Source: a virus. From it: a stretch of 64,000 nt of DNA. A model generated the notes under the pieces. That model was given only the letters and a program-made list of their open reading frames with translations, was not told the origin of the DNA and did not search any database. The translations under genes and the position numbers were made by a program. Within the stretch, counting starts at the first letter, position 1. Each line of letters opens with the position of its first letter. Location of the stretch: positions 30,187-94,186 of the IMG/VR virus record IMGVR_UViG_3300008117_003079; one strand, written 5' to 3'. Below are positions 6,831 to 63,921 of the stretch, in pieces.

Positions 6831-8297
6831 TTATTTTAAACAATGAACATTTATTAATTTGTGTTTATCAAAAATGATTTTAGTACTGATATGTTTATAC
6901 TTCATATTATTTATACCATCTTTTTTATAATCAATTTTACCTTGCTGCATTTCTAATACATATCTTCTTTCGTTTCTTGCAGTGGTTTCACCTTTAGCCC
7001 ATTTTTCAATACCACCTTCTTTAATTAAACCTTCAGTTTCATGTGGTAAACAGAAAAATTTACCATCTCTTCTATGTGGTAGTATTACATGGGGTATTTG
7101 TATTTCTCTTTCTTCAATACCAACATTATACAATACACCATCGTTTAATTCGGCCTGGTCTATTACAAATTTATCATCAACTATTTCATCAAAGTTATAG
7201 TGTAATACCAAACTATCGGTTGAATACTGCTTATGTAATAAATTAACTTCTTCACCAGTTAACGCTCTATCCCACATTTTAATATCAGCTATTTCACCTT
7301 TAAAAAATGCGTTTGGTTCAAATGGTTCAACCGTTGTCGTATGCCCTACATAAAATGGTTCATTTCCATATCGTTTTAAGTTATACTGATATTCAAACGG
7401 TGATTGCGTACCCGTTCCATTTCTAGCATCACTTTCATTTCCATTTAGATAAAAATGCATTTTCTTTTCCAAATCATCAATTACCATCGTAACCCACGTC
7501 CATTCTCCCTCATACCTTTTAAACCATTGGTAGATATGTTCTCTATGAGCATTCCATAACATACCAGTATATGCCCTACTATTGTTAAATGATAATCCCC
7601 AATCATAACCTGGTTTTCTGAATATAGGATATTCTACGAATTTTCTGTTTGAATCACCAATTAACCAAATAGGGACTTTTTCTATTTGTTGGTCTGCCTT
7701 TACTAATACAGAAATTGTATGTGAATTGGATATTGCTATTCTATTTTTTTCAGAAGATGGTATTTTGATGTATGAACTTTTACCATCAAATACTGCTACA
7801 TTTTTTACTTTAGCGAAATCAATAGTTTGTTTATTAACATATCCTTCCATCACACATCTCCAAAACAAATCATCATCTTCCATGCCCCAATCCCAATAAT
7901 CATTTGAATAACCATTGGTTGCTAAAACTTGCTCTTTTGTAAAAACAACCGCACCACCAAAGTATTCCTGATATTTTAATTGGTAATCCGATTGTGAGAT
8001 ACGAACTGCAATGTGTTGTGGATTTTCCATAGGATATGAATAATCACAACTATCATCTTCGGGTACCATATCAATATCATGCCAAACTATGTAATCACAT
8101 CCATCATCAATTGCATGTTTTGCAGCAATGTTTTTCATCAATCCTCTATTGAATAGATATTCATCACACTGATGTGCAATATAAATGGTGTGGTCAATTC
8201 CTTTCTTTGTTAAGAAATTAGTAACCCAAGGAACAAATTGATTCATATGTTCCTCTCTGTTTCTATATGGTACGCAGACCCCTAACTTATGCCCCAT
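6831..8297 (-). CDS. Beta-1,4-galactosyltransferase-like (GT7) with an internal LamG domain
   Basis: 488 residues. The first 155 follow the GT7 order: PYRNREEH (10-17), the FNRG block (49-52), HDIDMVP (73-79, the DxD metal motif), YFGG (112-115), and NGYSNDYWDWGMEDDD (128-143). The GT7 fold should continue, but about 240 residues of LamG-like sequence (YLNG turn near 283, FFKGEIADIKMWDRAL at 331-346) follow. The GT7 end then resumes with RNERR (441-445) and DGINNMKY (460-467), the counterpart of the family's DGLNSLTY. Thus the LamG is inserted inside the enzyme. Two paralogues follow downstream in the same operon. Donor and acceptor unknown; catalytic residues look intact. Confidence 0.85.
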   Translation of the reverse strand: MGHKLGVCVPYRNREEHMNQFVPWVTNFLTKKGIDHTIYIAHQCDEYLFNRGLMKNIAAKHAIDDGCDYIVWHDIDMVPEDDSCDYSYPMENPQHIAVRISQSDYQLKYQEYFGGAVVFTKEQVLATNGYSNDYWDWGMEDDDLFWRCVMEGYVNKQTIDFAKVKNVAVFDGKSSYIKIPSSEKNRIAISNSHTISVLVKADQQIEKVPIWLIGDSNRKFVEYPIFRKPGYDWGLSFNNSRAYTGMLWNAHREHIYQWFKRYEGEWTWVTMVIDDLEKKMHFYLNGNESDARNGTGTQSPFEYQYNLKRYGNEPFYVGHTTTVEPFEPNAFFKGEIADIKMWDRALTGEEVNLLHKQYSTDSLVLHYNFDEIVDDKFVIDQAELNDGVLYNVGIEEREIQIPHVILPHRRDGKFFCLPHETEGLIKEGGIEKWAKGETTARNERRYVLEMQQGKIDYKKDGINNMKYKHISTKIIFDKHKLINVHCLK

Positions 8298-8298
8298 T

Positions 8299-9729
8299 TT
8301 ACAATAATACTGATAGATGATGATAGTTATTCATTGATACATCATTTAATACCTGATATAAACAATTGTTTAAACCATCCTTATCTGTGTTATATAATTT
8401 AGTTTTAATTTGATTTAAAAATCTTAATTGGTTTATACGAGTTTCTCTATGAACCCAGTTTTTCTCATTCCAACTATTTGTTTTATGAGATAATAATTTA
8501 AATAAAGATTTTCTTCTATACGGAACCGTCATTTCTCTACCTAATGATTCATGTGATTTTATGAAATGGCAATTATTAATTTCACCATTATTACCGTTAA
8601 AAGATAAATCTAATAGAGTATTTTCTTTGTAGAATTTAAAATCATAATATAATTTTAAATGTTCCGCCGATTTATACGCTCTAAAATTTTCTAATAAAGA
8701 ATTTTCCAAAACATTATCTGCTAATATAGAAATTTCTTTATCTTTCAATTTACAATCGTATATTGCAAATTCAGAAATCATTCCATAAAAAAAGTTTGGG
8801 TTAGAATCCCTTTCAGGTGAACCAACGCCTAAATAAAAGTATTCTTCATCTGAATAATCCTTTGGAGCATTCTTTAGTTTTTCTGTACCTACTAATTCAC
8901 CATCTTTATAAAAAGAAATTTCATTTTTTTTATAATCAAAAGTTAAACAAATTTGAGTAAAATGATTAGTTAGTATTTCTGAATTAATAGAAGTGCAATC
9001 ATCGGTATCATCCCAAAAATCTACTTTATATCTTCTAAAAGAATTATAACTTATATTCGTATCGTATCCAGGTATTGAAAATACAGTATATTCATCATAA
9101 TCATTATTTGGATTTGATATTATTTCATCAGGTTTAAATGTAATTATTATTGATGTATCTTTTTCAAAATCTAATAAGTCTTTCTTTAGTATCCTGATGT
9201 AAGAATCATTTCCACTAAAAGATAACCCATATAATTTTTTGGTTTCATTTTTACCAATAATTTTTGAATCCAATGGAATGCTCTTTTGATTAACCCTAAA
9301 TAAAAGGTCATCATCTTCAAACCCCCATCCCCAATATAAATTAGAATATCCATTTACTCTTTCAAATGTATCAGAACTAAACATAGTTACACCTCCAAAA
9401 TAATCATCAAATGATAAGTTTTTGGATTTATCATATTCTAATTCAAAATTGGTTGCAAGGTGCATGGGTAATTCAGAATAAGAATAATCAACCTCAATTG
9501 GTAGCATATCCACATCGTGAAATACAATATATCCACATCCTAATTCTTTTGCTTTGATATACCCAATATTTAATAACTTCCCTCTATTAAACGGTTTATC
9601 ATCGGTCTGTTCAACTACGATAATCTCGTGTTTAATTTTTTTGGATTTTAAATATGAAGACATAGTTTCACCGAATCGTGCTAAATGCGATTCTCTATCT
9701 CTGTATGGTACAATTATTCCTAACTTCAT
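8299..9729 (-). CDS. Beta-1,4-galactosyltransferase-like (GT7) with an internal LamG domain, best-conserved copy
   Basis: 476 residues. The closest of the three to animal-type beta-1,4-galactosyltransferases: PYRDRESHL (8-16), VVEQ with FNRGKLLNIGY (47-57), FHDVDMLP (70-77), YFGGV (110-114), NGYSNLYWGWGFEDDD (126-141). LamG-like sequence spans about 165-395 (FYKDGELVG at 273-281; FFYGMISEFAIYDCKL at 313-328). GT7 C-terminus resumes with PYRRKSLF and ends DKDGLNNCLYQVLN (449-462), which matches DGLNSLTYQVLD. All metal and acid residues are present, so activity is likely. Start is 2 bases after the neighbouring stop. Confidence 0.88.
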   Translation of the reverse strand: MKLGIIVPYRDRESHLARFGETMSSYLKSKKIKHEIIVVEQTDDKPFNRGKLLNIGYIKAKELGCGYIVFHDVDMLPIEVDYSYSELPMHLATNFELEYDKSKNLSFDDYFGGVTMFSSDTFERVNGYSNLYWGWGFEDDDLLFRVNQKSIPLDSKIIGKNETKKLYGLSFSGNDSYIRILKKDLLDFEKDTSIIITFKPDEIISNPNNDYDEYTVFSIPGYDTNISYNSFRRYKVDFWDDTDDCTSINSEILTNHFTQICLTFDYKKNEISFYKDGELVGTEKLKNAPKDYSDEEYFYLGVGSPERDSNPNFFYGMISEFAIYDCKLKDKEISILADNVLENSLLENFRAYKSAEHLKLYYDFKFYKENTLLDLSFNGNNGEINNCHFIKSHESLGREMTVPYRRKSLFKLLSHKTNSWNEKNWVHRETRINQLRFLNQIKTKLYNTDKDGLNNCLYQVLNDVSMNNYHHLSVLL

Positions 9730-11554: not shown

Positions 11555-12403
11555 TTATATAGATATAATTTTTTTAAATAATTGTTTCCATTTTGAGTAT
11601 CCTGAATAATGATAAGTTGGTGATAATTCGAATCCAAATCTCACATCATCCAATGGTAATTTAAATCTAAATTTTGCCAATTCTCTATACATTTTTCGAT
11701 ATTCTTCTGAATATGAGTAATCTTTATTTATGTTTGCAACTGCTCTAATTCTTTCTCCACAAGTACTATCCCATTTAAAATGATGTACTTGCACACTGCA
11801 TTTGTTAATTGGTGCAATCAGTGGATGATTCCAACCTTGCCATTTCCAAGTAGTATGTCCGTCTATTTTTGCATAATGCTGTCCGTTTGTAATTTCAACA
11901 TACCCCTTTGCTATACAAATTTTATTAGGATTAGCACCACTTAACGGAAATCTAAAAAATCCTGCGTATGGAAACTTTTCAAATATGTCATCCGTATCTA
12001 ATAATTCAACAAATTCACCATCCTCTCCAATTCTATCTATAAATCCACCTCTTACCATTTCCCATCCATTTACATCACAATTTGATGTGATACTTCGTAA
12101 TGAATCCGAATAGACATGGAACTCATCATCATCGGATATTACCCACCAATCGTTTGGATGAGTTGATTTTACTTCATTGTAAAGTCTTGTTACCTTTTCC
12201 CAATTATACTTCTCTTCAATTACCGTTTTTACAATTTTAGCATTTGGAAATTGAGATACTATGGTTTTAACTTCTGATAAATTAGATTGCTCTTCCCAAT
12301 CATATACAACAATATACATTTCATCCACTTTATCTTTGTAGTGGTTTAACATATGTTTTAATGTTGTTGTTCTAGAACCTGTTACCGTAACTAATCTAAT
12401 CAT
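11555..12403 (-). CDS. GT-A-type glycosyltransferase-like protein
   Basis: 282 residues. The N-terminus MIRLVTVTGSRTTTLKHML and the later WWVISDDDEFHVY (acidic DDDE metal motif near residue 95) fit a GT-A nucleotide-diphospho-sugar fold. His-containing stretches NGQHYAKIDGH and VQVHHFKWD near residues 170 and 207 are reminiscent of phage GT2-like or DUF glycosyltransferases. It overlaps the upstream methyltransferase by 4 bases and precedes the GT7-LamG genes, which supports a role in the same glycan. Donor unknown. Confidence 0.65.
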   Translation of the reverse strand: MIRLVTVTGSRTTTLKHMLNHYKDKVDEMYIVVYDWEEQSNLSEVKTIVSQFPNAKIVKTVIEEKYNWEKVTRLYNEVKSTHPNDWWVISDDDEFHVYSDSLRSITSNCDVNGWEMVRGGFIDRIGEDGEFVELLDTDDIFEKFPYAGFFRFPLSGANPNKICIAKGYVEITNGQHYAKIDGHTTWKWQGWNHPLIAPINKCSVQVHHFKWDSTCGERIRAVANINKDYSYSEEYRKMYRELAKFRFKLPLDDVRFGFELSPTYHYSGYSKWKQLFKKIISI

Positions 12404-13158
12404 TTTCTTTTAACTAATGTTAATCCAGTTGATGATGGTTTATTTTTTACTATTCCAAAATTGAATAAATCAAATGTTTCCCACTTTGGATTATCTTTAA
12501 GTTCTTTAGCAAATGTAATTGGTCCATGCCAATCATCAAAATCACCTCTATCTTTTACTTCGTTTGTAACAATGTAACTATCTGCATAATTAGGGTCCGT
12601 ATCGTGGATAGAAATGATACCATTTGGAGAAAGTAACTGCGAATATAGTTCAAAATCCTCTTTTACATTCTCATAACTATGACCAGCATCTATATGTAAA
12701 TAATCTATCTGAATATCATTAAGAATAAAGTAATTATGAAAAGCGTCTTCTGTTGTTTTATTAATAATTCGTGGATGAAATGTTCTTCTGAAAAATGATT
12801 CTTCTCTAAACCAATTTACATGTCCACCAATACCGTTCATAGCATCAACAACATAAGTAACACCAATATCTCCCCAATTTAAATCAGAATTTCCTTCAAA
12901 AATGCCTTGTTTATGTAAATCGTAACGAGCCTGTGTCATTAATCTAGGTACAAATCCTCCACCTGAACCTAAACATACACAAGTTTTTGCTCTCATATAC
13001 TGAATAAGAGAATAGATTATTAAACCATCTCCTAAATGATTATCAGTTGCTCCATGTGACCATCTATACGGAACTGGAACTTCTTCTTGCTCCTGATATT
13101 CGTTATATTCTAAATTGTTTGTTAGATAATTCTTTAAGTATTGTAAATCTTGTAGCAT
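12400..13158 (-). CDS. SAM-dependent methyltransferase (Methyltransf_24/TylF-like)
   Basis: 252 residues. CVCLGSGGGFVPRLM (near residues 56-70) is a class I methyltransferase SAM-binding glycine loop, and the block IDYLHIDAGHSYENVKED followed by GIISIHDTDP is the typical C-terminal half of the Methyltransf_24 family. Such enzymes often methylate sugars in surface glycans. It is first in its operon: a TTG-N20-TATATTGT promoter lies in the 62-base gap upstream (13186-13216). Sugar O-methylation is inferred from neighbours. Confidence 0.82.
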   Translation of the reverse strand: MLQDLQYLKNYLTNNLEYNEYQEQEEVPVPYRWSHGATDNHLGDGLIIYSLIQYMRAKTCVCLGSGGGFVPRLMTQARYDLHKQGIFEGNSDLNWGDIGVTYVVDAMNGIGGHVNWFREESFFRRTFHPRIINKTTEDAFHNYFILNDIQIDYLHIDAGHSYENVKEDFELYSQLLSPNGIISIHDTDPNYADSYIVTNEVKDRGDFDDWHGPITFAKELKDNPKWETFDLFNFGIVKNKPSSTGLTLVKRK

Positions 13159-13185: not shown

Positions 13186-13216
13186 ACAATATACTAAAAA
13201 AAATCTAAATTTACAA
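13186..13216 (-). promoter_or_regulatory. Host-like promoter candidate, TTG-N20-TATATTGT
   Basis: On the minus strand TTG (13216-13214) is followed after exactly 20 bases by TATATTGT (13193-13186), close to the Bacteroidota TTG / TAnnTTTG consensus. It lies 27 bases upstream of the methyltransferase start at 13158. Confidence 0.6.
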
Positions 13217-16610: not shown

Positions 16611-16620
16611 TATAAATATA
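16611..16620 (-). promoter_or_regulatory. TATATTTATA motif (late-promoter candidate)
   Basis: Exact minus-strand TATATTTATA, 19 bases before the ATG at 16591. There is no TTG 20 bases upstream, unlike the host-like class. Six further intergenic copies in front of minus-strand genes support a role. Confidence 0.4.
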
Positions 16621-23988: not shown

Positions 23989-24698
23989 TCCTCGTGTGAG
24001 TAGAATGATACTATATTATATTTAATATCATTCTTTACTTTTTCAACTTCATGGAATAAATTTTTATCAGAATCTAATACTACAAAATTAGGAAAAATTG
24101 GATTTACTTTAATATCATTTCCATTTAAATCATGTAATATCAAATGCCCACCGTTTGATTCACCCCATTCATTATTTAAAAAATACAAAAATACACATAT
24201 TCTGTTGTTAGGTTGTCCATCATCGTGTAATTTTATTTCGCAACCTTCATTGTAAAATTGCAGTTTTGTATTTTCAGTAAATCTACCAAACGATTTTTCA
24301 GGATAGTATTTTTTTACAAAGTTTTTTTGAAAATTTCTTAATACTTCATTGTTTATTTTTCCATTTATTTCTGAATTCATAGAGGTACCAAATACCCAAG
24401 TTGGATAAAATCCACATTCTTCAATTTTTTTCAATTGATATTGATGTGCTTTATTATAAACATAATCGGCAGTATTTAAATCTTTATCATTTTTTAAATA
24501 CCCATCATACACCAATTCTTCCATATATGATTGGTCGTTGTATTTAAACCAATAATCATATCTAGAATGTCTTACAAAATTTGTATTATCTATATAATCT
24601 TTTATTTGTTTAAACCCATCTAAATCGATTAGTTCGGAATAATCTTCCAACTTACCGTAAATGTATCCACTATTTCTGTAATTTTCTATACTTTCCAT
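23985..24698 (-). CDS. 2-oxoglutarate/Fe(II) oxygenase, prolyl-4-hydroxylase type
   Basis: 237 residues. KLHDDG (157-161) gives His158 and Asp160, and FHEVEK gives His216, together the HxD...H iron triad. The residue that usually binds 2-oxoglutarate (Arg) is Lys226 in IKYNIVSFY, which is seen in other family members. GGHLILHDLNG fits the double-stranded beta-helix. It shares one base with the SbcCD fusion start (TAATG). Target not known; three more members lie at 56363-57893, and the collagen-like fibre is a candidate. Confidence 0.8.
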   Translation of the reverse strand: MESIENYRNSGYIYGKLEDYSELIDLDGFKQIKDYIDNTNFVRHSRYDYWFKYNDQSYMEELVYDGYLKNDKDLNTADYVYNKAHQYQLKKIEECGFYPTWVFGTSMNSEINGKINNEVLRNFQKNFVKKYYPEKSFGRFTENTKLQFYNEGCEIKLHDDGQPNNRICVFLYFLNNEWGESNGGHLILHDLNGNDIKVNPIFPNFVVLDSDKNLFHEVEKVKNDIKYNIVSFYSHED

Positions 24699-27600
24699 TA
24701 GAAATTAATTTTACTATATCCATTTTCTTTTTTAATTTCAATCAATCCATCTACTATATCTCTCATTTGTTCTAAATGGGAAATTATCCATATAAAATCA
24801 AATTGAGTTTTAAGATATTGCATCATCATAAATAGTGATGATAAATTATCTGAATCCAATGTGCCAAATCCTTCATCGATTACCAAAAAATTTGGACGAG
24901 GTAAGTTACACACATTGATAAGAGCAACTCTAATTGCCAATCCACTAACAAATTTTTCCATACCACTACACATCTCCAATGGCCATTCTTGGTCATCATA
25001 AACAATTTTGGCATTGATTGATTTTCCATCCATCTCCATCGTAACTCCAAAATCAACTACTTGTGCCAAAATATTATTTACCTCATTCTCAATTACAGGT
25101 AATGCTTTTGAAATTAACTCATATGGGATTCCATCTCTCTTTACTGAATCCAAATAATAGGTATACAGGCGGTTCTTTTCTTCCAATGCCTTAACATCAT
25201 TCATCTTCTGTTTTATGTCCTCTATAAACGAAGATATGGATGTAATAGAACCATTTAAATTTGTTATATCTTTATTTAATTTACTAATATCATTTGCAAT
25301 AGTATTTTTTGCTTTATTTAATTCAGAAATTTCACTTTCTATTTCTTTATTTCTAGAAATAGTATCTTCATTTTCATAATACTTATCTATATTTTCATCA
25401 ATTGTATCTAATTGATTTTGTAATAATTGTTCTTTAGTTTTTAAAGCACTTAATTCTATTTGTGTTTTTTCTAAAATAATTTTACTTCTAGAGTATTTGT
25501 TTTTTAGTTCATTCCACTCATTATATTGCTCTTCAACTCCATTTAAGGAATCTAAAACACAATTGATTGCAGCAACTTCATTAAAAGTATGCTCTACTGA
25601 TATTTGCAATCCTTCTAAATCTGATTTTGCTTTTACTGCATCTTTCACAAATTCATTATCACAACAGAATTTACAATTAGGGTCATATTGGTGATTATTT
25701 AAATGTCCAATCTTTTCTTCAGCTACTTCTAATTGTTGTTTTGCTTTTTGGTATACTTTTTCTGCTTCAACTAAATCTTTGGATTGTTTTACAAAATCGT
25801 TATGAGCAATTTCTATATCAACTTCATTGTCATCTATTGTGAATTTACATTTTTCAAATAGGGATTGTGAAACTTCGGTAAGTAAAATTTTATGTTGTTC
25901 AATTTTACTTTCTTTTAATTCATAATCAGTTTCTGCATCTTCAATCTGTTTCGATATAGAGTTTCTTTTTGATTCTAATAAAGATAAATCAAGATTAGAA
26001 TCAATTGGAGTTAATTCTCTACTTAAATTTACAATTTTATCATTTAATTCACTTACTTCCGTATTTTTATCACTTAATAATACTTCTAATCCCTTTAATT
26101 GTGATTTTTTTTCCAATAATTCCTTACCCTTTTCGGCAAGTTCTGTTGTAAAATCTGTTTTCTTAAAGTTTTTAATCAATACGGAAACTTCTCTAATATC
26201 TTCAGTTGCAGTATCATATAGTTTATCAAAAATAGTTAAACCCATAAATTGTGCAAGAAGGTCTTTCCTTTCTGATTGTGATTTATCAATAAAAAGGGCA
26301 TTATTACCTTGCAGTGATAGTGCAGTTAGTACAAAATCTTCATATTTTCCAACATATTGTTCAATAATTTGGTTTGTATCTCTTCTTTCGGTTCCATTTA
26401 GTGATGTTTTAGTATCACCATCTTGTCTCCAAAATTGAACATCTACTTTTACATTTTTTCCTTTGTTAATCGTTTTAGCAGTTCTCTGAATACCATATTC
26501 TACCCCATCTATTTGAAAATATAGTGTACAATCAAAATCCGTTTTACGATTATTTAAGATATTAGATGCTTTATATGCTCTACTACTCTTATCATATAAA
26601 CAAAACGATACTGCATCAAATAAAGAAGATTTGCCCGCTGCATTTGGGGCAAATAATCCAACTAATCCGTTTAATTTTGTAAAATCAATTTTGTTACTTT
26701 CTCCATAACTAAACATATTTGAAAACTCAAAACGAATTGGTTTCCATTGAATGTTGCGTTGGATGTCATCTTGAACGATTCTACTATTTATATCTCTGTT
26801 AATCAATTCTAGCCCTTTTAAATCTTCAGGAACTACAAAAGGCATCATTCTCTCAATATACTCATTTATAAGTGAGTTTTGATAATTGATGTCTGAAATA
26901 TCTTCAAAGTCTAATTTGTTTAATCTATCACCTGTTTTAGATTTAGAAAGGGAATCGGTTCTAATAATTGTAAAATCCTCAACACCATATCTCATTTTAA
27001 TTTCAGCCATTACTCTTTTAGTATCAGCGGAATCGGTATTAGATAAACGAACTCTCAAACGAGGTTTCTTTGGCATATCGGATACGATAGGAACTTTCCC
27101 ATTATCAATATCCATAGTATAATACCCATAATCGTTTTGGATATCAACTGCTTCGTAAGTAAAAGTATCCAAATCCCAAACGAGGAACCCATGTTTATCT
27201 AGGGTTTCACCAAAGTTTTGTTGAATAAGAGAACCAGCATAGACAACCTTACAACCTTTTGGAGAAATCATCTCTTGTCGTTTGTGAATATCACCTAATA
27301 AGGCTAAATCGTATCCATCAAACATATCAGTTGTAAAATGACGAGATGAAACGGTGTATCCAATATCTGTTTGAGAATTATCAACTGGCCCGTGAAATAA
27401 AGCAATCTTTTTGTTTCCAAATATAGTATTTGCTTTTGGCCAATTTGCTTTATTATCAAAGATACTGAATACCGCAAAATCTATTCCACCAATACCATAC
27501 ACTTGAGTATCTTTGAGATATGTAAAGTTTGGTAAGTTTAAAGCATCTACAATTGGAGTAAGAACATCCAATCTATCAGAGTTATTCATATTACAATCGT

Positions 27601-27856
27601 GATTACCTGTAATAAGGATTGTTTCACAATGTTTAGAACACTCCGTAAATAACCAACTAATCTCCCTAACTAATTCAGGAGATAATTCTAATTTAGCATG
27701 AGCAATATCACCTGCTAAATAAATGATTGAATCATCCGTACCTCTTTTACGAATCTCCTCAAACATCTTTTCAAAAACCTGTCTGTACTCATTGTGTCTT
27801 TTCACATTACGGATGTGTATATCTGCAATATGATAAATCTTTTTCAATCTACTCAT
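24698..27856 (-). CDS. Fused Mre11-Rad50 (gp47-gp46/SbcD-SbcC) recombination nuclease
   Basis: 1052 residues in one frame. Residues 1-345 are the Mre11/SbcD nuclease: ADIHIR (11-16), YLAGDIAH (46-53), ITGNHD (82-87), then LFHGPV and LLGDIH. From about 370 the Rad50/SbcC ATPase follows: FAPNAAGKSSLFD (Walker A), a long coiled coil, CKFC zinc hook near 728, a second coil, CSGMEKFVSG (signature) near 965 and FLVIDEGFGTLD (Walker B) near 990. In T4 these are two genes of 339 and 560 residues. It joins recombination and replication in a complex with the nearby primase. The fusion is continuous with no stop or frameshift. Confidence 0.92.
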   Translation of the reverse strand: MSRLKKIYHIADIHIRNVKRHNEYRQVFEKMFEEIRKRGTDDSIIYLAGDIAHAKLELSPELVREISWLFTECSKHCETILITGNHDCNMNNSDRLDVLTPIVDALNLPNFTYLKDTQVYGIGGIDFAVFSIFDNKANWPKANTIFGNKKIALFHGPVDNSQTDIGYTVSSRHFTTDMFDGYDLALLGDIHKRQEMISPKGCKVVYAGSLIQQNFGETLDKHGFLVWDLDTFTYEAVDIQNDYGYYTMDIDNGKVPIVSDMPKKPRLRVRLSNTDSADTKRVMAEIKMRYGVEDFTIIRTDSLSKSKTGDRLNKLDFEDISDINYQNSLINEYIERMMPFVVPEDLKGLELINRDINSRIVQDDIQRNIQWKPIRFEFSNMFSYGESNKIDFTKLNGLVGLFAPNAAGKSSLFDAVSFCLYDKSSRAYKASNILNNRKTDFDCTLYFQIDGVEYGIQRTAKTINKGKNVKVDVQFWRQDGDTKTSLNGTERRDTNQIIEQYVGKYEDFVLTALSLQGNNALFIDKSQSERKDLLAQFMGLTIFDKLYDTATEDIREVSVLIKNFKKTDFTTELAEKGKELLEKKSQLKGLEVLLSDKNTEVSELNDKIVNLSRELTPIDSNLDLSLLESKRNSISKQIEDAETDYELKESKIEQHKILLTEVSQSLFEKCKFTIDDNEVDIEIAHNDFVKQSKDLVEAEKVYQKAKQQLEVAEEKIGHLNNHQYDPNCKFCCDNEFVKDAVKAKSDLEGLQISVEHTFNEVAAINCVLDSLNGVEEQYNEWNELKNKYSRSKIILEKTQIELSALKTKEQLLQNQLDTIDENIDKYYENEDTISRNKEIESEISELNKAKNTIANDISKLNKDITNLNGSITSISSFIEDIKQKMNDVKALEEKNRLYTYYLDSVKRDGIPYELISKALPVIENEVNNILAQVVDFGVTMEMDGKSINAKIVYDDQEWPLEMCSGMEKFVSGLAIRVALINVCNLPRPNFLVIDEGFGTLDSDNLSSLFMMMQYLKTQFDFIWIISHLEQMRDIVDGLIEIKKENGYSKINF

Positions 27857-28794
27857 AAACTATTTATTTTATTTAATAGTAATTCTTCCGAAGTAAACTC
27901 TTTAGTTTTATTTAGTTCTTCGTAGAATTTTTCATACCCCATATCAGCGGCATCTTTATCTTTCAAATACATCATCTTAACTTGAATTCCATTCTTTCTA
28001 AAGTATTCCGCAGCTTTTAATGCTTCATTCATCGCATCGTTATCTAATGAAATTACAATATCACTAACTCCACTCATAAAGATTTTCTCAACCAATTGTT
28101 TGGATGGAAACTTACCTAAAAGTGGAATTGCATTTCTTTTGATTGTGATTGCATCAAATACACCCTCACATAGTATAATTGGTTCATTCCAATTAACCTG
28201 TGATTCTAAACAAATTATATTTTTACTGATTGGAGGGTTTTTGTATTTCATCTTCTCATCTGGATAATAAGAACGAGAAACAAAATAGTTTAGTAAACCA
28301 TCCGAACTGTACGATGGTATAATTATTCTCCTACTATACAACCCATCTTTGCAATAACCAATGTTATATTTAACAATTTCCTTTATACCAATTCCTCTTT
28401 GAGAAAGATAGAACATAGCATGTTTATATTCTGGATTGAATCCAGTTGGTTCATCTGCTAATGAAATAAATTCCTTTGGGAGTTGTATAAATACTCTAGT
28501 TTCAGCATCTTCTTGTTGAGGTGTCCAATTACTATCTCCGTAGATTTGTCTAATTATGGATATAGTTTGTCTATCCACATCCAACTTACGAAGTAGAGAT
28601 GTAAGTTTTTTACCACCACTATTACAATTCCAACAATGCCATTTCTGACTTTCTGTATTTACTTGCAATTTAGGTTTGTGGTGGTTACAGAAAGGGCAAT
28701 AAAAGGCCAATTCATTACCTTTTAAATAATTGTATGTACCCAACACATTTGATAGTGTGGATGTAACGAGATTTTTATCAGTTTGATTCAACAC
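27853..28794 (-). CDS. DnaG/gp61-type primase
   Basis: 313 residues. CPFC (33-36) and CWNC (54-57) form a CHC2-like zinc finger; a TOPRIM domain begins LCEGVFDAI near 210, with SLDNDAMN and KDKDAADMG providing the acidic residues. T4 gp61 is of similar size. The listed start is GTG at 28794, with TTG at 28791 also possible; no ATG is close. ATGA overlap with the nuclease fusion. A promoter with TTG-N20-TATCTTTG, an exact -7 consensus, ends only 5 bases above the GTG, so the message could be leaderless or the true start lies slightly downstream. Confidence 0.85.
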   Translation of the reverse strand: MLNQTDKNLVTSTLSNVLGTYNYLKGNELAFYCPFCNHHKPKLQVNTESQKWHCWNCNSGGKKLTSLLRKLDVDRQTISIIRQIYGDSNWTPQQEDAETRVFIQLPKEFISLADEPTGFNPEYKHAMFYLSQRGIGIKEIVKYNIGYCKDGLYSRRIIIPSYSSDGLLNYFVSRSYYPDEKMKYKNPPISKNIICLESQVNWNEPIILCEGVFDAITIKRNAIPLLGKFPSKQLVEKIFMSGVSDIVISLDNDAMNEALKAAEYFRKNGIQVKMMYLKDKDAADMGYEKFYEELNKTKEFTSEELLLNKINSL

Positions 28795-28798
28795 AAAT

Positions 28799-28829
28799 CA
28801 AAGATAGTATAAATATTTTAGATTTACAA
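28799..28829 (-). promoter_or_regulatory. Host-like promoter, TTG-N20-TATCTTTG
   Basis: Minus strand TTG (28829-28827), 20 bases, then TATCTTTG (28806-28799), a perfect TAnnTTTG. A TATATTTATA-like motif lies inside the spacer (28808-28817, 9 of 10), so early and late classes may overlap here. Confidence 0.7.
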
Positions 28830-29472: not shown

Positions 29473-29482
29473 TATAAATATA
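29473..29482 (-). promoter_or_regulatory. TATATTTATA motif (late-promoter candidate)
   Basis: Exact minus-strand copy 17 bases above the ATG at 29455; no TTG element at the 20-base position. Confidence 0.4.
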
Positions 29483-30658: not shown

Positions 30659-30664
30659 ATCACA

Positions 30665-30674
30665 TATAAATATA
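30665..30674 (-). promoter_or_regulatory. TATATTTATA motif (late-promoter candidate)
   Basis: Exact copy 6 bases above the ATG at 30658, directly after the terminator at 30682-30705. The short distance would give a nearly leaderless message. Confidence 0.35.
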
Positions 30675-30681
30675 AAGAAAT

Positions 30682-30705
30682 AAAAAACCCCATATTACTA
30701 TGGGG
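30682..30705 (-). terminator. Rho-independent terminator after gene 30758-31993
   Basis: Minus strand CCCCATA-GTAA-TATGGGG stem-loop (7 bp) followed by TTTTTT (plus-strand aaaaaa at 30682-30687). It ends transcription of the upstream tail gene and lets the next one be expressed from its own motif. Confidence 0.85.
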
Positions 30706-30757
30706 TTGAAACTCCAACGAGTCGGTCCTACGAGTCTATCATAGGAGTGGTAATTTA

Positions 30758-32647: not shown

Positions 32648-32657
32648 TATAAATATA
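32648..32657 (-). promoter_or_regulatory. TATATTTATA motif (late-promoter candidate)
   Basis: Exact minus-strand copy 22 bases above the ATG at 32625, in the 49-base gap below the giant tail gene. No TTG partner at 20 bases. Confidence 0.4.
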
Positions 32658-44227: not shown

Positions 44228-44237
44228 AATAAATATA
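44228..44237 (-). promoter_or_regulatory. TATATTTATA-like motif (late-promoter candidate)
   Basis: Minus strand TATATTTATT (9 of 10), 22 bases above the ATG at 44205. No TTG partner. Confidence 0.35.
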
Positions 44238-50453: not shown

Positions 50454-50790
50454 CTATTTCTCCATTTCTGATTGCAGTTCCACTAATTTCGGCTATATTT
50501 GTGGGTGGTTCGTGATAAATTACATCATACCCTACTCCTCTACCATAATTTACTGATTCAATATCAGGAATAATTGATATATGAATTTTATCCCAATTAT
50601 CAATAAAAAAAGATTCTTTAGTTAAATCTATCATAACCTGTTGAGCAGTTTTTGGATTATTCTCATCTGTTGGAACATCTCTAATTGCTAACCAAACATT
50701 TTTACCCTTTTCTAATTGTTGATTGATTAACCACTCATGTCCTTTGTGCCAATTCTGCCATCTTCCGATGTATAGTGCGTATTTTTTCAT
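50425..50790 (-). CDS. Cytidylyltransferase-fold nucleotidyltransferase (NMNAT-like)
   Basis: 121 residues. ALYIGRWQNWHKGHEWLI (5-22) carries the HxGH nucleotide-binding motif (HKGH), and AEISGTAIRNG near 104 corresponds to the ISGTxIR motif. The middle PDIESVNYGRGVGYDV also occurs in phage proteins that couple this domain to other enzymes. It transfers a nucleotide to a phosphate acceptor; nicotinamide mononucleotide is the best guess, as in phage NAD salvage. Overlaps UvdE by 4 bases. Confidence 0.82.
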   Translation of the reverse strand: MKKYALYIGRWQNWHKGHEWLINQQLEKGKNVWLAIRDVPTDENNPKTAQQVMIDLTKESFFIDNWDKIHISIIPDIESVNYGRGVGYDVIYHEPPTNIAEISGTAIRNGEIDATGKKTHS

Positions 50791-51686
50791 AACATTATTT
50801 TTATAAAAGGTAAAATTGCTAATTCTTTTCCTTTTGCTTCAACCATAATGTCCAAATCCAACTCGTATGTATTGGGGAGGGCATTAATAAGATAGGAATG
50901 TGCTTGCGGTTTTTCTTTTGGGTTGTTTTCATGTAATGCCTTCGATTCTGAATAATGAACTTCTTGCGTAATACCTTTTGGCCAAGTAGTTGCTGCTAAT
51001 TTAAGAGCTTCTTCTTCCGTTAATCCACCTGTACAAAATTGGTGGTGGTGATAATCGAAAACAATAGGAATACCAGTATGTTCGTGGATATACATCAAAT
51101 CTTTAACAGAGTACATAGATGCTTTATCATCATTCTCCAATGTCAATCGTTTTTGTACGCTTGGTGAGAGTCTTTTGAAGTTTTGTATCAATCTATCCAT
51201 TGCAGACTTTTTATCTCCGTAGACACCATTACAATGGATATTTATATTGTTGTAATGTGTTTTTGATAACCCCATCATATCAAAAATCTTACCATGTAGT
51301 TCCAAATCGGCAAAAGTCTTTTGAATAACTTCTTCGTTTGGAGATGGTAATACATTAAATGGACCTGGATGTGAATTAATACGGATATTATGAAATTTAG
51401 CAAAATCACCTGCTTTTTTAAGCTCTGATTTGATTTCTTTGTAATCCTTTAATTGAGTAATGTCGAAATTATCACCCCACGGAATGATAGTAGATGAAAG
51501 ACGGAAGAACTTAATACCATTCATCCTATTCCACTCTAAAATCTTAATAACATCCTTTGCATTGAGTAATGCAAGTTCGGAAACGTAATCTAAACCTTTT
51601 TGATTGAAGGTTTTTTTGACCATTGTACGATTAGTGGTAATTTTCTTACCTACGGTCATATTAATACATGCATATCCTATATTCAT
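50787..51686 (-). CDS. uvdE: UV damage endonuclease (UvdE/UvsE family)
   Basis: 299 residues. MNIGYACINM at the start, FFRLSSTIIPWG (59-70), RINSHPGPFNVLPSPNEEV (104-122), HCNGVYGDK (near 150), LTLENDDKASMY (near 185), and FDYHHHQFC (near 213) are the TIM-barrel UvdE blocks with metal-binding His and Glu residues. It nicks DNA 5' to UV photoproducts and abasic sites. It has its own promoter (51691-51721). Confidence 0.93.
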   Translation of the reverse strand: MNIGYACINMTVGKKITTNRTMVKKTFNQKGLDYVSELALLNAKDVIKILEWNRMNGIKFFRLSSTIIPWGDNFDITQLKDYKEIKSELKKAGDFAKFHNIRINSHPGPFNVLPSPNEEVIQKTFADLELHGKIFDMMGLSKTHYNNINIHCNGVYGDKKSAMDRLIQNFKRLSPSVQKRLTLENDDKASMYSVKDLMYIHEHTGIPIVFDYHHHQFCTGGLTEEEALKLAATTWPKGITQEVHYSESKALHENNPKEKPQAHSYLINALPNTYELDLDIMVEAKGKELAILPFIKIML

Positions 51687-51690
51687 ATGT

Positions 51691-51721
51691 TAAATATAAG
51701 AAAATTATTTCGTATTTACAA
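51691..51721 (-). promoter_or_regulatory. Host-like promoter, TTG-N20-TATATTTA
   Basis: Minus strand TTG (51721-51719), 20 bases, TATATTTA (51698-51691). It ends 4 bases upstream of the UvdE ATG at 51686, so the transcript start would be close to the ATG. Confidence 0.6.
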
Positions 51722-53036: not shown

Positions 53037-53061
53037 TATAAATATACAAAAAATAATTCAC

Positions 53062-53442
53062 TTAATCAACTTTAATTGAAATTGATTTTGATTTCCTTTC
53101 GTCTTTCTTATCAATTGTTAAAGTAAGTAACCCATTAGTGAATTTTGCCTCCGTTTTAGTTCCATCATAATCTTTGCCTACACTGAATGTGGAATCGATG
53201 TCCTGTACTAACGGAGAACTACCTTCTTGCTTTTTTGCTTTAATTGTTACCTTATCTTCGGTAACTTCTAATTTAATGTTTTTAACATCATGCCCTAATA
53301 CATTAAATGTTAATTGTTGTTTACCATCCTCCAACTGCGTTACATCGTAATCTGCCGCAAATGTATTGTAATTAGTTGTGGTAGTGTACCAGTTTGGAGA
53401 ATTAAATAAATTTACTAATTTTTTTAAATCTGAATTGTACAT
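53062..53442 (-). CDS. Hsp20/alpha-crystallin small heat-shock protein
   Basis: 126 residues from ATG at 53442; ATG 53481 (139 residues) and TTG 53505 (147 residues) are also in frame. 53442 was preferred because the promoter candidate at 53488-53518 would start RNA near 53481, and because AAATTAACT before the ATG resembles other phage leaders. FNVLGHDVKNIKLEV (alpha-crystallin strand), then KVTIKAKK, and the C-terminal NGLLTLTIDKKD with SKSISIKV (IxI/V end) define the family. T4-like marine phages often carry one. Its promoter overlaps a paired operator-like element. Confidence 0.88.
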   Translation of the reverse strand: MYNSDLKKLVNLFNSPNWYTTTTNYNTFAADYDVTQLEDGKQQLTFNVLGHDVKNIKLEVTEDKVTIKAKKQEGSSPLVQDIDSTFSVGKDYDGTKTEAKFTNGLLTLTIDKKDERKSKSISIKVD

Positions 53443-53487
53443 AGTTAATTTGTTTAAGTTTTTGAAATAATTTAAATTCATATTATC

Positions 53488-53518
53488 CAATACTATACCA
53501 ACCAAATTAATATGACAA
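53488..53518 (-). promoter_or_regulatory. Host-like promoter of hsp20, TTG-N20-TAGTATTG
   Basis: Minus strand TTG (53518-53516), 20 bases, TAGTATTG (53495-53488; one mismatch to TAnnTTTG). The TTG lies inside the palindrome at 53513-53525. Confidence 0.55.
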
Positions 53519-53560: not shown

Positions 53561-54214
53561 TTATTTAGATTTATTGTAATTTTGTCTTTCAATAACAGTA
53601 CTCATATGGTCTGCCCAATGCATTATATACTGAATGTTTGATTTAAGATACTTGGATACATCAAATACTTTATAGTATTTTACATTATCCTCATCATACA
53701 TACCATCTGTAAGTTTAATACCAAAGTATTCATTTTCATTATACTGAATACCATACCTATTAAGTAAGAAGAAAGTTCTATCAGTAATAGCCATATACGA
53801 GTTCTTACTATTTCTAGTATAGACTTCACCTTTATTTTTTACATGCCAATCTGATTCATTAGGATGATAATGTAATTCTTCTTTGGTTCCTAACTTACCT
53901 AAATCATGATGTAGTGCTACAAAAATTAATTCTTCATCTGTAAAATCAGGTTCACCACCTTGTGATGTAAATAGATTTTTTACAGCAAGTGCATTCTTGC
54001 AAACATTAAAAATATGGTCGATATAACCACCTGGATATGCATTATGAAAATTTAAATTACCAGAAGCTGGTGAAATCATAAGGTTACCACCTAATTCTGA
54101 TTCAGAATACATATGAAGAAGTTTTTCTAATCTTTCACCTGTGAAGTACTTTTCTAGGATTTTGAGAAACTTTTCGTAATTTGCTTTTAATTCTTGTTCT
54201 GTTTTTTGCTTCAT
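53561..54214 (-). CDS. HD-domain phosphohydrolase
   Basis: 217 residues. HIF (His67), then LHHDLGK (His103, Asp104) and YIMHWADHMST near 197-207, with the last Asp, form the H...HD...D metal set of HD hydrolases. Family members hydrolyse nucleotides or cyclic nucleotides. Upstream is a -7 match (TATGTTTG at 54253-54260). The stop is just next to the hsp20 operator pair. Substrate unknown. Confidence 0.8.
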   Translation of the reverse strand: MKQKTEQELKANYEKFLKILEKYFTGERLEKLLHMYSESELGGNLMISPASGNLNFHNAYPGGYIDHIFNVCKNALAVKNLFTSQGGEPDFTDEELIFVALHHDLGKLGTKEELHYHPNESDWHVKNKGEVYTRNSKNSYMAITDRTFFLLNRYGIQYNENEYFGIKLTDGMYDEDNVKYYKVFDVSKYLKSNIQYIMHWADHMSTVIERQNYNKSK

Positions 54215-54252: not shown

Positions 54253-54260
54253 CAAACATA
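54253..54260 (-). promoter_or_regulatory. Possible -7 element TATGTTTG upstream of the HD gene
   Basis: Exact TAnnTTTG on the minus strand, but no TTG stands 20 bases upstream (TAG instead). The preceding TTTTTCG matches bases before the -7 of the plus-strand early promoters. Confidence 0.4.
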
Positions 54261-54287
54261 CGAAAAATTTTCAAATTTTCCTAGTCA

Positions 54288-54602
54288 TTACATAAAAAGT
54301 TTTTTCTTTGTTAGGATTTCATACAGAATTTCAACTTCTTCTTCAGTAGTTAATTCAGGTAAATCATCATCAAATAATCGAACGGTGTAGATTGTGTTTC
54401 CGTTTTCATCAAAAAATTCATCAGATTCGGAACTGAATAATACTGGAGCAAATTCTATATTTTCTATATCATCTTCATCTATATCTACCAATGGTATGAC
54501 GTAATAATGGTAGGAATCTATACCATCTTCTACTTCTATTTTATGACACTTCCATCTATTGAAGCTATTTTCGGTTATTGGATTCTGCGGTAATATAATC
54601 AT
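54288..54602 (-). CDS. Acidic hypothetical protein
   Basis: 104 residues, not recognised. Strongly acidic (VPLVDIDEDDIENIEF, SSESDEFFDENG, TEEEVEILYE) and beginning MIILPQNPITENSFNRWKC. Its own host-like promoter lies at 54621-54651, so it is probably an early gene, possibly a DNA-mimic or regulator by analogy with other acidic early proteins (speculative). Confidence 0.7.
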   Translation of the reverse strand: MIILPQNPITENSFNRWKCHKIEVEDGIDSYHYYVIPLVDIDEDDIENIEFAPVLFSSESDEFFDENGNTIYTVRLFDDDLPELTTEEEVEILYEILTKKKLFM

Positions 54603-54620: not shown

Positions 54621-54651
54621 TAAATATAGTAAAAAAATATGAATTTTACAA
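54621..54651 (-). promoter_or_regulatory. Host-like promoter, TTG-N20-TATATTTA
   Basis: Minus strand TTG (54651-54649), 20 bases, TATATTTA (54628-54621), 18 bases upstream of the ATG at 54602. Confidence 0.65.
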
Positions 54652-60978: not shown

Positions 60979-60988
60979 ATATAAATAT
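60979..60988 (-). promoter_or_regulatory. TATATTTATA-like motif (late-promoter candidate)
   Basis: Minus strand CATATTTATA (9 of 10), 26 bases upstream of the Hint gene start at 60952. No TTG partner. Confidence 0.3.
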
Positions 60989-62670: not shown

Positions 62671-62701
62671 ACAATATACTAATAATTATTAAATTTTCCA
62701 A
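62671..62701 (-). promoter_or_regulatory. Host-like promoter (leftward), TTG-N20-TATATTGT
   Basis: Minus strand TTG (62701-62699), 20 bases, TATATTGT (62678-62671), 24 bases above the ATG at 62646. It forms a divergent pair with the plus-strand promoter at 62719-62749. Confidence 0.65.
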
Positions 62702-62718
62702 AATAATCGATGAAATAC

Positions 62719-62749
62719 TTGTTTTTTATTTCGGAATTTCGTACATTGT
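62719..62749 (+). promoter_or_regulatory. Host-like early promoter (rightward), TTG-N20-TACATTGT
   Basis: TTG (62719-62721), 20 bases, TACATTGT (62742-62749). It is followed by GTAATAAAGA, close to sequences after the two other plus-strand promoters. Confidence 0.65.
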
Positions 62750-62771
62750 GATTGTAATAAAGATACCCTAT

Positions 62772-62918
62772 ATGAAAAACGAAACAGATATTCTAATAAA
62801 AATATCAGAGTTAGAACTTGCACTCTCAAAAGAGATGAAACTCGATATCTTACACGATATTAATATATTAAAAATACAAACTCAAATCGATACTCTTAAT
62901 TGGGTATTAGAAAAATAA
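62772..62918 (+). CDS. Small early hypothetical protein
   Basis: 48 residues, start ATG 62772, stop 62916-62918. Helical and charged (MKNETDILIKISELELALSK). First plus-strand early gene, 22 bases after the promoter's -7 element. No function recognised. Confidence 0.7.
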   Translation: MKNETDILIKISELELALSKEMKLDILHDINILKIQTQIDTLNWVLEK

Positions 62919-62930
62919 TTACGAAAGTAC

Positions 62931-62961
62931 TTGGAATTGCGAAAAGTTTTTCGTAGATTAG
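62931..62961 (+). promoter_or_regulatory. Early promoter copy with internal inverted repeat
   Basis: TTG (62931-62933), 20 bases, TAGATTAG (62954-62961). The spacer contains CGAAAA-GT-TTTTCG (62940-62953), a 6-bp inverted repeat ending at the -7 element. The following AGTAATAAGA recurs after the other early promoters. Confidence 0.65.
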
Positions 62962-62999
62962 TAGAGTAATAAGAAATGAACCTTTAACCCCCCTTAATT

Positions 63000-63329
63000 A
63001 TGAATTACCTTATTGACCCCCAAAGTTTAGTGTTCAACTCTCATAGAGTTAGTGGTTTCACCAAAATGGTTGGTGATGAGCATATCCCACAATGGGATTT
63101 GTTGGAAGTAGCAACCGAAGTTGCTGAAGAATGGACAGATGATTGGCCTGAAGACCAAGGATTTGGTTCATCTGATGGAACTTATATGATGAAAGATTTC
63201 ATCGATAATGTGATTTGGAGATATGCTAGTGGTAGATTGATGACCAAATTTACTCCATCACTTTCGATAGTGGAGTATTCGGAAGCCGAATATCACAATA
63301 GAGTTCAACGAATGGAAAGCGGACTATAA
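63000..63329 (+). CDS. Early hypothetical protein
   Basis: 109 residues, not recognised. Acidic with Trp-rich middle (EEWTDDWPEDQGFGSSDG), a mark of conserved small proteins in large phages. CCCCCC-containing leader just above the ATG. One base before the next gene. Confidence 0.75.
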   Translation: MNYLIDPQSLVFNSHRVSGFTKMVGDEHIPQWDLLEVATEVAEEWTDDWPEDQGFGSSDGTYMMKDFIDNVIWRYASGRLMTKFTPSLSIVEYSEAEYHNRVQRMESGL

Positions 63330-63330
63330 T

Positions 63331-63591
63331 ATGAGAAAGACAGAATTCTTTAAAAACTATGGTGGAGCATTAGTTGCTATAACCGCCGATGATGCAGAGT
63401 ATGGTGATTTCCTACTACTTCATCCAGAAGAAATAGAAATGGCAAAAGTATATGAAAGTTTAGGTTGTACTATCGTATCCGTACATGAAATGGAAGATGG
63501 TGATGATGATATTGATATGAATCAGCCCTGTGATTATGGTAACCAACCATTTAAAATTGGATACTTTGCATTAGATAACCCAAACTTTTAA
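63331..63591 (+). CDS. Early hypothetical protein
   Basis: 86 residues, not recognised. Acidic (EMEDGDDDIDMNQPCDYG) with an aromatic C-terminus (GYFALDNPNF). Co-transcribed with the neighbours on both sides. No motif decides its role. Confidence 0.75.
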   Translation: MRKTEFFKNYGGALVAITADDAEYGDFLLLHPEEIEMAKVYESLGCTIVSVHEMEDGDDDIDMNQPCDYGNQPFKIGYFALDNPNF

Positions 63592-63613
63592 TTAACCAAA
63601 TCCCCTAAATTAT

Positions 63614-63829
63614 ATGTATAATTACAGAACTCTCTCTAAATCCCAACTTATCGAATTGGTAAACGGAATTGAATCCACTCTTTCGAATTCAATCTACACT
63701 GCGGAAAAAGAAGCAAAAGAGTATTCCACCGAACTACCATCCCAACTGGCATTTGAAGTTGGGTATTTCAAAGGGTATGTTAAAACCGTACTATCTCTAA
63801 TTGAAGAATACAAAAATTGTTCAAAATAA
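63614..63829 (+). CDS. Early hypothetical protein
   Basis: 71 residues, not recognised. Starts MYNYRTLSKSQLIELVNGIE, then an amphipathic helix with many Glu/Lys, ending YKNCSK. Preceded by a CCCCTAAA leader motif. Function unknown. Confidence 0.75.
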   Translation: MYNYRTLSKSQLIELVNGIESTLSNSIYTAEKEAKEYSTELPSQLAFEVGYFKGYVKTVLSLIEEYKNCSK

Positions 63830-63852
63830 TTTTAAAATATTTTCACAAACCC

Positions 63853-63883
63853 TTGGAATTACGAAAAGTTTTTCGTACATTTA
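63853..63883 (+). promoter_or_regulatory. Early promoter copy with internal inverted repeat
   Basis: TTG (63853-63855), 20 bases, TACATTTA (63876-63883), with CGAAAA-GT-TTTTCG (63862-63875) in the spacer. Strongly similar to the copy at 62931; followed by AAGTAATAAGAG. Confidence 0.7.
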
Positions 63884-63921
63884 TAAAGTAATAAGAGATA
63901 ACCCCTAAAACCCCTAACAAA

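Follow-up and report, generated by a model that had tools for sequence, protein, structure and literature searches.

A fixed 20-base spacer in candidate early/middle promoters of a T4-like phage with a probable Flavobacterium-type host

The window, a 64,000-base stretch of viral DNA, forms the end of a 94,186-base virus record. Nearly all of its genes run leftward; rightward genes occur only at its right end, from about 62.7 kb. A 201,940-base record (G001) is a longer version of the same phage, which carries matches to the T4-type families of major head protein, portal, large terminase, baseplate wedge, tail tube, and sheath. Its nearest isolate is Flavobacterium phage vB_FspM_immuto (MW353175, Immutovirus; hereafter immuto), which infects Flavobacterium sp. 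LMO8 and has a 160 kb genome; the capsid and terminase proteins of the two phages are 54% identical each, and almost no similarity to known phages is found at the DNA level. A single 1052-aa protein encoded at 24698-27856 (minus strand) matches both SbcD-like and SbcC-like families (gp47/gp46 type) and is an apparent fusion. Gene starts were called mechanically, and the records may be fragments.

The first-pass annotation had placed the host in the Bacteroidota, and this assignment is well supported. Identity between the phage GroEL and those of Bacteroidota is 66-75%, and the nearest isolate grows on Flavobacterium. A Shine-Dalgarno-like motif precedes just 3 of 221 genes, with A favoured at -3, -12, and -13 relative to gene starts, and the translation signals of Flavobacterium johnsoniae have been described in the same terms (PMC6847099). 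Together, nearest isolate, GroEL, and translation signals point to a Flavobacterium-type host.

At the right end of the window, two promoter candidates lie back to back, each consisting of TTG, 20 bases (N20), and a -7 box of the general form TAnnTTK. These and the further sites of this architecture in the window are as follows (G002 is a relative with a diverged sequence):

62671..62701, minus strand: N20 promoter candidate TTG-N20-TATATTGT, leftward, divergent from the 62719 site; -33 and -7 elements and spacing identical in G002
62719..62749, plus strand: N20 promoter candidate TTG-N20-TACATTGT, before rightward early genes; G002 retains TTG, N20, and TACATTG with a largely changed spacer
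62931..62961, plus strand: N20 variant TTG-N20-TAGATTAG, before gene 63000-63329; -7 box and 20-base distance kept in relatives
63853..63883, plus strand: N20 promoter candidate TTG-N20-TACATTTA, followed by TAAAGTAATAAGAG, before the gene at 63921; conserved in L005, L006, L015, G002, and G003
54621..54651, minus strand: N20 promoter candidate TTG-N20-TATATTTA, before gene 54288-54602; conserved in G002
54253..54283, minus strand: N20 site with TAG for TTG, TAG-N20-TATGTTTG, before gene 53561-54214; conserved in G002
53039..53069, minus strand: TTG-N20-TATATTTA, ambiguous in class as its box also fits the late class described below; conserved in G002
51691..51721, minus strand: N20 promoter candidate TTG-N20-TATATTTA, before endonuclease gene 50787-51686; conserved in G002
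28799..28829, minus strand: N20 promoter candidate TTG-N20-TATCTTTG, before the DNA primase gene, whose GTG start at 28794 makes it nearly leaderless; conserved in G002
13186..13216, minus strand: N20 promoter candidate TTG-N20-TATATTGT, before gene 12400-13158 (weak methyltransferase match); conserved in G002

The first-pass annotation had listed nine promoter candidates under the pattern TTG-N20-TAnnTTK and overlooked the sites at 53039-53069 and 54253-54283. All nine of its strings are found where it placed them; seven match the pattern literally, and those at 62931 (TAGATTAG, TAnnTTA) and 53488 (TAGTATTG, TAnnATT) depart from it. The site at 62931 is a conserved variant, the counterparts of which in L005, L015, and G002 read TAG-N20-TA[CG]ATTAG followed by GTAGAGTAATAA, with TAG in place of TTG. 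Eight candidates thus stand. The ninth, TTG-N20-TAGTATTG at 53488..53518 (minus strand), was rejected, as its box is not TAnnTTK and is not conserved, reading TAAAAATG in G002; it is further weakened by an Hsp20 gene start that probably lies about 40 bases further on. For this Hsp20-like gene (53062-53505, minus strand), comparison with G002 suggests a true start near 53442 rather than at the TTG at 53505. In L006, a close relative, a tandem duplication of about 74 bases (~8640-8790) spans the divergent promoter pair equivalent to 62671/62719.

The 20-base spacer occurs far beyond chance. TTG was counted at each distance of 8-32 bases from TAnnTTK, in sense orientation, in noncoding DNA upstream of mechanically called genes of G000 and the first 108.7 kb of G001 (~200 kb together). 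Spacer 20 yields 18 sites, against a mean of 1.88 and a maximum of 8 for the other 24 spacers, and 300 dinucleotide shuffles give a mean of 0.74 and a maximum of 4 at this distance. In coding DNA on both strands the distribution is flat, with 64 matches at spacer 20 and about 62 at every other spacer. The same peak appears in G001 sequence that the first-pass annotation had not seen (11 vs 1.2), in the 145 kb of G002 (12 vs ~1), and in immuto (32, or 42 with a looser box, vs ~1); G000 and G001 represent one phage, of which G002 and immuto are diverged relatives, and these data sets are not fully independent by descent. Equal density inside genes, the outcome that the annotation had named as fatal to its claim, was not found: hits number 3.2 per kb upstream of genes and 0.16 per kb per strand within them. 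The six phage matches at 19 or 21 bases can be put down to late boxes or to unrelated or chance strings.

Conservation tells the same story. Across 11 orthologous promoter pairs, TTG and TAnnTT show no changes at 99 positions, whereas the spacer has changed at 19 of 220 and the bases just upstream at 19 of 110. Spacer length is nonetheless the same in all 11, and at 62719 a spacer largely rewritten in G002 still measures 20 bases. Because boxes and length are kept while the spacer sequence drifts, the length itself is under selection. A scan of IMG/VR that left the gap free before a conserved downstream stretch returned nine matches, seven of them with exactly N20.

The genes served fit the earlier proposal of an early/middle promoter class. 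N20 sites precede genes for GroEL, primase, single-strand DNA binding protein, a clamp-like protein, and an RNase-H-like exonuclease, as well as many small early ORFs; tail tube, sheath, and fibre genes bear another signal. The portal gene of the window's phage, expected to be late, has an N20 site and is an exception. The clamp-like protein (L011:12864-13583) is called from a weak PCNA_C match of 21.9 bits (cut-off 23; E 2.2e-4), and phrog_223 gave no match. Before a series of small ORFs at the left end of G001, several N20 sites have the downstream stretch TATAGAGTAATAAGAG in common. In L009 (1100-3700) it is conserved among early promoters, at the presumed mRNA 5' end.

The other signal is a solitary box, ATATTTATA, which stands without TTG upstream of tail tube, sheath, fibre, and several head genes. 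Upstream DNA (5.7 kb) holds 28 sense copies of it and 2 antisense copies, compared with 11 in about 394 kb of coding strands. The window contains six such late-type boxes:

60980..60988, minus strand: ATATTTATA, without TTG
44228..44236, minus strand: ATATTTATT
32648..32656, minus strand: ATATTTATA
30665..30673, minus strand: ATATTTATA, directly after the T-run of a terminator-like hairpin
29473..29481, minus strand: ATATTTATA
16611..16619, minus strand: ATATTTATA

These six boxes form a strand-specific, promoter-like class, TATATTTATA, upstream of late genes. At window 30659-30757, and in L009 at 7651-7710 and 12394-12488, the late boxes sit right on a hairpin's T-run, which apparently fuses a terminator with the next promoter. 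In immuto, the core TATTTATA precedes the genes for portal (gp20), terminase, sheath, tape measure, and tail fibre.

A factor of the gp55 family or with sigma-70 region 2 gave no credible match among the phage proteins, a search that could miss a diverged one. Neither phrog_12791 nor PF04542 was matched, and scanning for motifs of gp55 and of clamp-binding tails brought up no convincing candidate. A match to phrog_234 was rejected as a phage sigma factor, reaching only 12.7 bits at the end of a 145-aa head-region protein without gp55 features. The RNA polymerase beta subunit (PF00562) is absent from the phage records examined.

In base composition the N20 class resembles host promoters in part. 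In its logo G is nearly absent at -10/-9 (1 of 46 positions), and the surroundings of -18 and -28 are A/T-rich; both traits have been reported for F. johnsoniae promoters (PMC6847099). The base at -5 differs: G occurs there in 6 of 22 N20 sites of the window's phage and in none of 42 in immuto. TTTA ends the box in 11 of 22 and 31 of 42 of these sites, respectively; part of the overall TTTA excess in the window's phage comes from late boxes, and the fair figures for -5 are those of the N20 class alone. In host upstream DNA, TAnnTTTG is enriched in sense (99 vs 46) and the TTTA form hardly so (70 vs 63), whereas in the phages the preference is reversed.

Spacing was compared with Flavobacteriales DNA (510 kb), in which the excess of TTG before TAnnTTTG is weaker and broad, covering spacers of 19-21 bases (8, 6, and 14 sites), while in Bacteroidales DNA it peaks at 20. 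The ratio of spacer 20 to spacers 19 and 21 is 18:6 in the phage and 6:22 in Flavobacteriales (Fisher p ~2e-4), the phage being narrower, though the host values derive from unmapped promoters near groEL loci and offer a rough comparison only. In Bacteroides thetaiotaomicron the distance between -33 and -7 elements is variable (PMC7366714), and in F. johnsoniae a -33 element was not seen globally (PMC6847099). The unrelated Flavobacterium phages FL-1 and FCL-2 lack the spacer-20 peak, although they too presumably rely on the polymerase of the host, and this speaks against plain host recognition of the N20 sites; the boxes of FL-1 are host-like TTTG. RM378 lacks the N20 class.

The N20 sites are probably early/middle promoters of a T4-like phage of Flavobacterium-type bacteria that depend on the host RNA polymerase and its primary sigma factor. 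In this view, TTG at -35 to -33 would be contacted by sigma region 4, and the TAnnTT box, which begins at -12, by region 2, with exactly 20 A+T-rich bases keeping both elements at the best distance; transcription would start about 4-5 bases after the box. The rigidity likely compensates for a G at -5 that is mostly missing, by presenting an ideal -33 element in the optimal position. Late genes would instead rely on the separate TATTTATA box, which an altered holoenzyme would probably recognise as infection proceeds. The first-pass annotation had likewise named the host sigma factor as the reader, a proposal made plausible by the host-like architecture and logo but needing qualification, since the usual host G at -5 is mostly missing and the spacing is much stricter than in host DNA. 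Judged by their elements, the N20 sites work like primary-sigma promoters that the host enzyme probably reads, without being plain members of the TAnnTTTG class.

Other explanations account for parts of these data. With -5 mostly A and a spacing stricter than that of the host, a modified polymerase or another factor is conceivable: the N20 sites would then be a lineage-specific class for a holoenzyme that the phage has changed, by a sigma factor of its own, by a co-activator that binds sigma, or by modifying the polymerase, and that favours A at -5 and requires a spacer of exactly 20 bases. The departure at -5 in two phage genomes, the statistical contrast in spacing with Flavobacteriales, and the occurrence of the class in the T4-like Flavobacterium lineage, together with its absence from FL-1, FCL-2, and RM378, all argue for such a change. 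It is nevertheless unlikely, given that the phage records examined yielded no sigma-70 region 2, gp55 family member, or RNA polymerase beta subunit and that the N20 architecture and logo are host-like. Moreover, short of an injected factor, the genes expressed first must depend on the host enzyme in its unmodified form, and the apparently earliest genes bear the N20 class. 7-Deazaguanine was considered as a cause of A at -5 and rejected, as QueC is present in immuto and not credibly in the window's phage. A host alternative sigma factor might read the sites with TATATTGT or TACATTGT (13186, 62671, 62719), in the manner of motif SM5 of Flavobacterium psychrophilum, TAnnTTGY, which is ascribed to such a factor (PMC9723704). 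Boxes of this kind, present in 4 of 22 N20 sites, fit TAnnTTGY as given there, but they share TTG, N20, and an A+T-rich spacer with the remaining set, which renders a separate reader improbable.

Two further proposals concern the spacer itself. A regulator-binding palindrome, CGAAAAGTTTTTCG, might fix the 20-base interval, and an exact palindrome-like motif does occur at 62940 and 63862. Only these two early sites have it, however, and relatives lose the symmetry (GAGAAACTTTTCG, TTCGGTCTTTTTTCG) yet keep the length; a palindromic operator in the spacer was rejected as not conserved, and this origin of the interval is very improbable. That the N20 sites are chance strings in A+T-rich intergenic DNA is barely credible. 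The bare TTG-N20-TAnnTTK string is admittedly unspecific, 19 of its 27 occurrences in the window lying inside genes, but spacer 20 alone stands out in several data sets while coding DNA is flat, and both length and boxes are conserved among relatives.

Beyond host-enzyme recognition of the N20 class lies a wider reading, held tentatively and rather doubtful, in which T4-like Flavobacterium phages possess a two-class promoter code of their own. The early/middle class with N20 and A at -5 would reflect a polymerase specificity shifted by the phage away from host TTTG, and the late TATTTATA class, the reverse complement of the T4 late box, would depend on a late factor that has escaped recognition.

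Establishing a -33 element for Bacteroidota promoters has proved difficult, as it is unseen globally in one species and variably spaced in another. This phage lineage offers dozens of natural promoter candidates in which a sharp TTG keeps one fixed distance and the -5 base has changed naturally, making the roles of the -33 element, spacer length, and G at -5 directly testable. The two signals also allow early and late genes to be called from sequence in uncultured Flavobacterium phages, and the late box points to a dedicated late transcription factor. Together they give a concrete, testable picture of gene switching in this virus group.

Compared with promoters of the Bacteroidota primary sigma factor (sigma-ABfr/sigma-A), TTTG/TAnnTTTG (PMC6847099, PMC7366714, PMC9723704), the phage N20 sites share TTG near -33, TA at -12/-11, and TT at -8/-7, together with the lack of G at -10/-9 (TAHHTTTG) and the A/T-rich positions near -18 and -28. 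They differ in a spacer fixed at the centre of the variable host range (~19-21) and much narrower, and in a -5 base that is mostly A where the host has G, so that the full TAnnTTTG consensus is not reached; their -33 element is sharp where that of F. johnsoniae is hard to see. Immuto has the same class as the window's phage, TTG-N20-TATMTTTA at about 40 sites, with no TTTG among them, and the same solitary TATTTATA box before tail and head genes, but it differs in its smaller genome and in its annotated tRNAs and 7-deazaguanine genes. Promoter studies on immuto or its relatives were not found in the literature searched.

The late promoter box of T4 is TATAAATA. The sense-strand box of the phage is its reverse complement, TATTTATA occurring 30 times and TATAAATA twice, so that the T4 orientation is not the one used. 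In both systems, late promoters lack a -35 element and place the box just upstream of structural genes. The two-class plan is likewise common to both, with two-element promoters for early/middle genes and a single box without -35 for late ones, whereas the early boxes of the phage differ from those of T4 and are of the Bacteroidota type.
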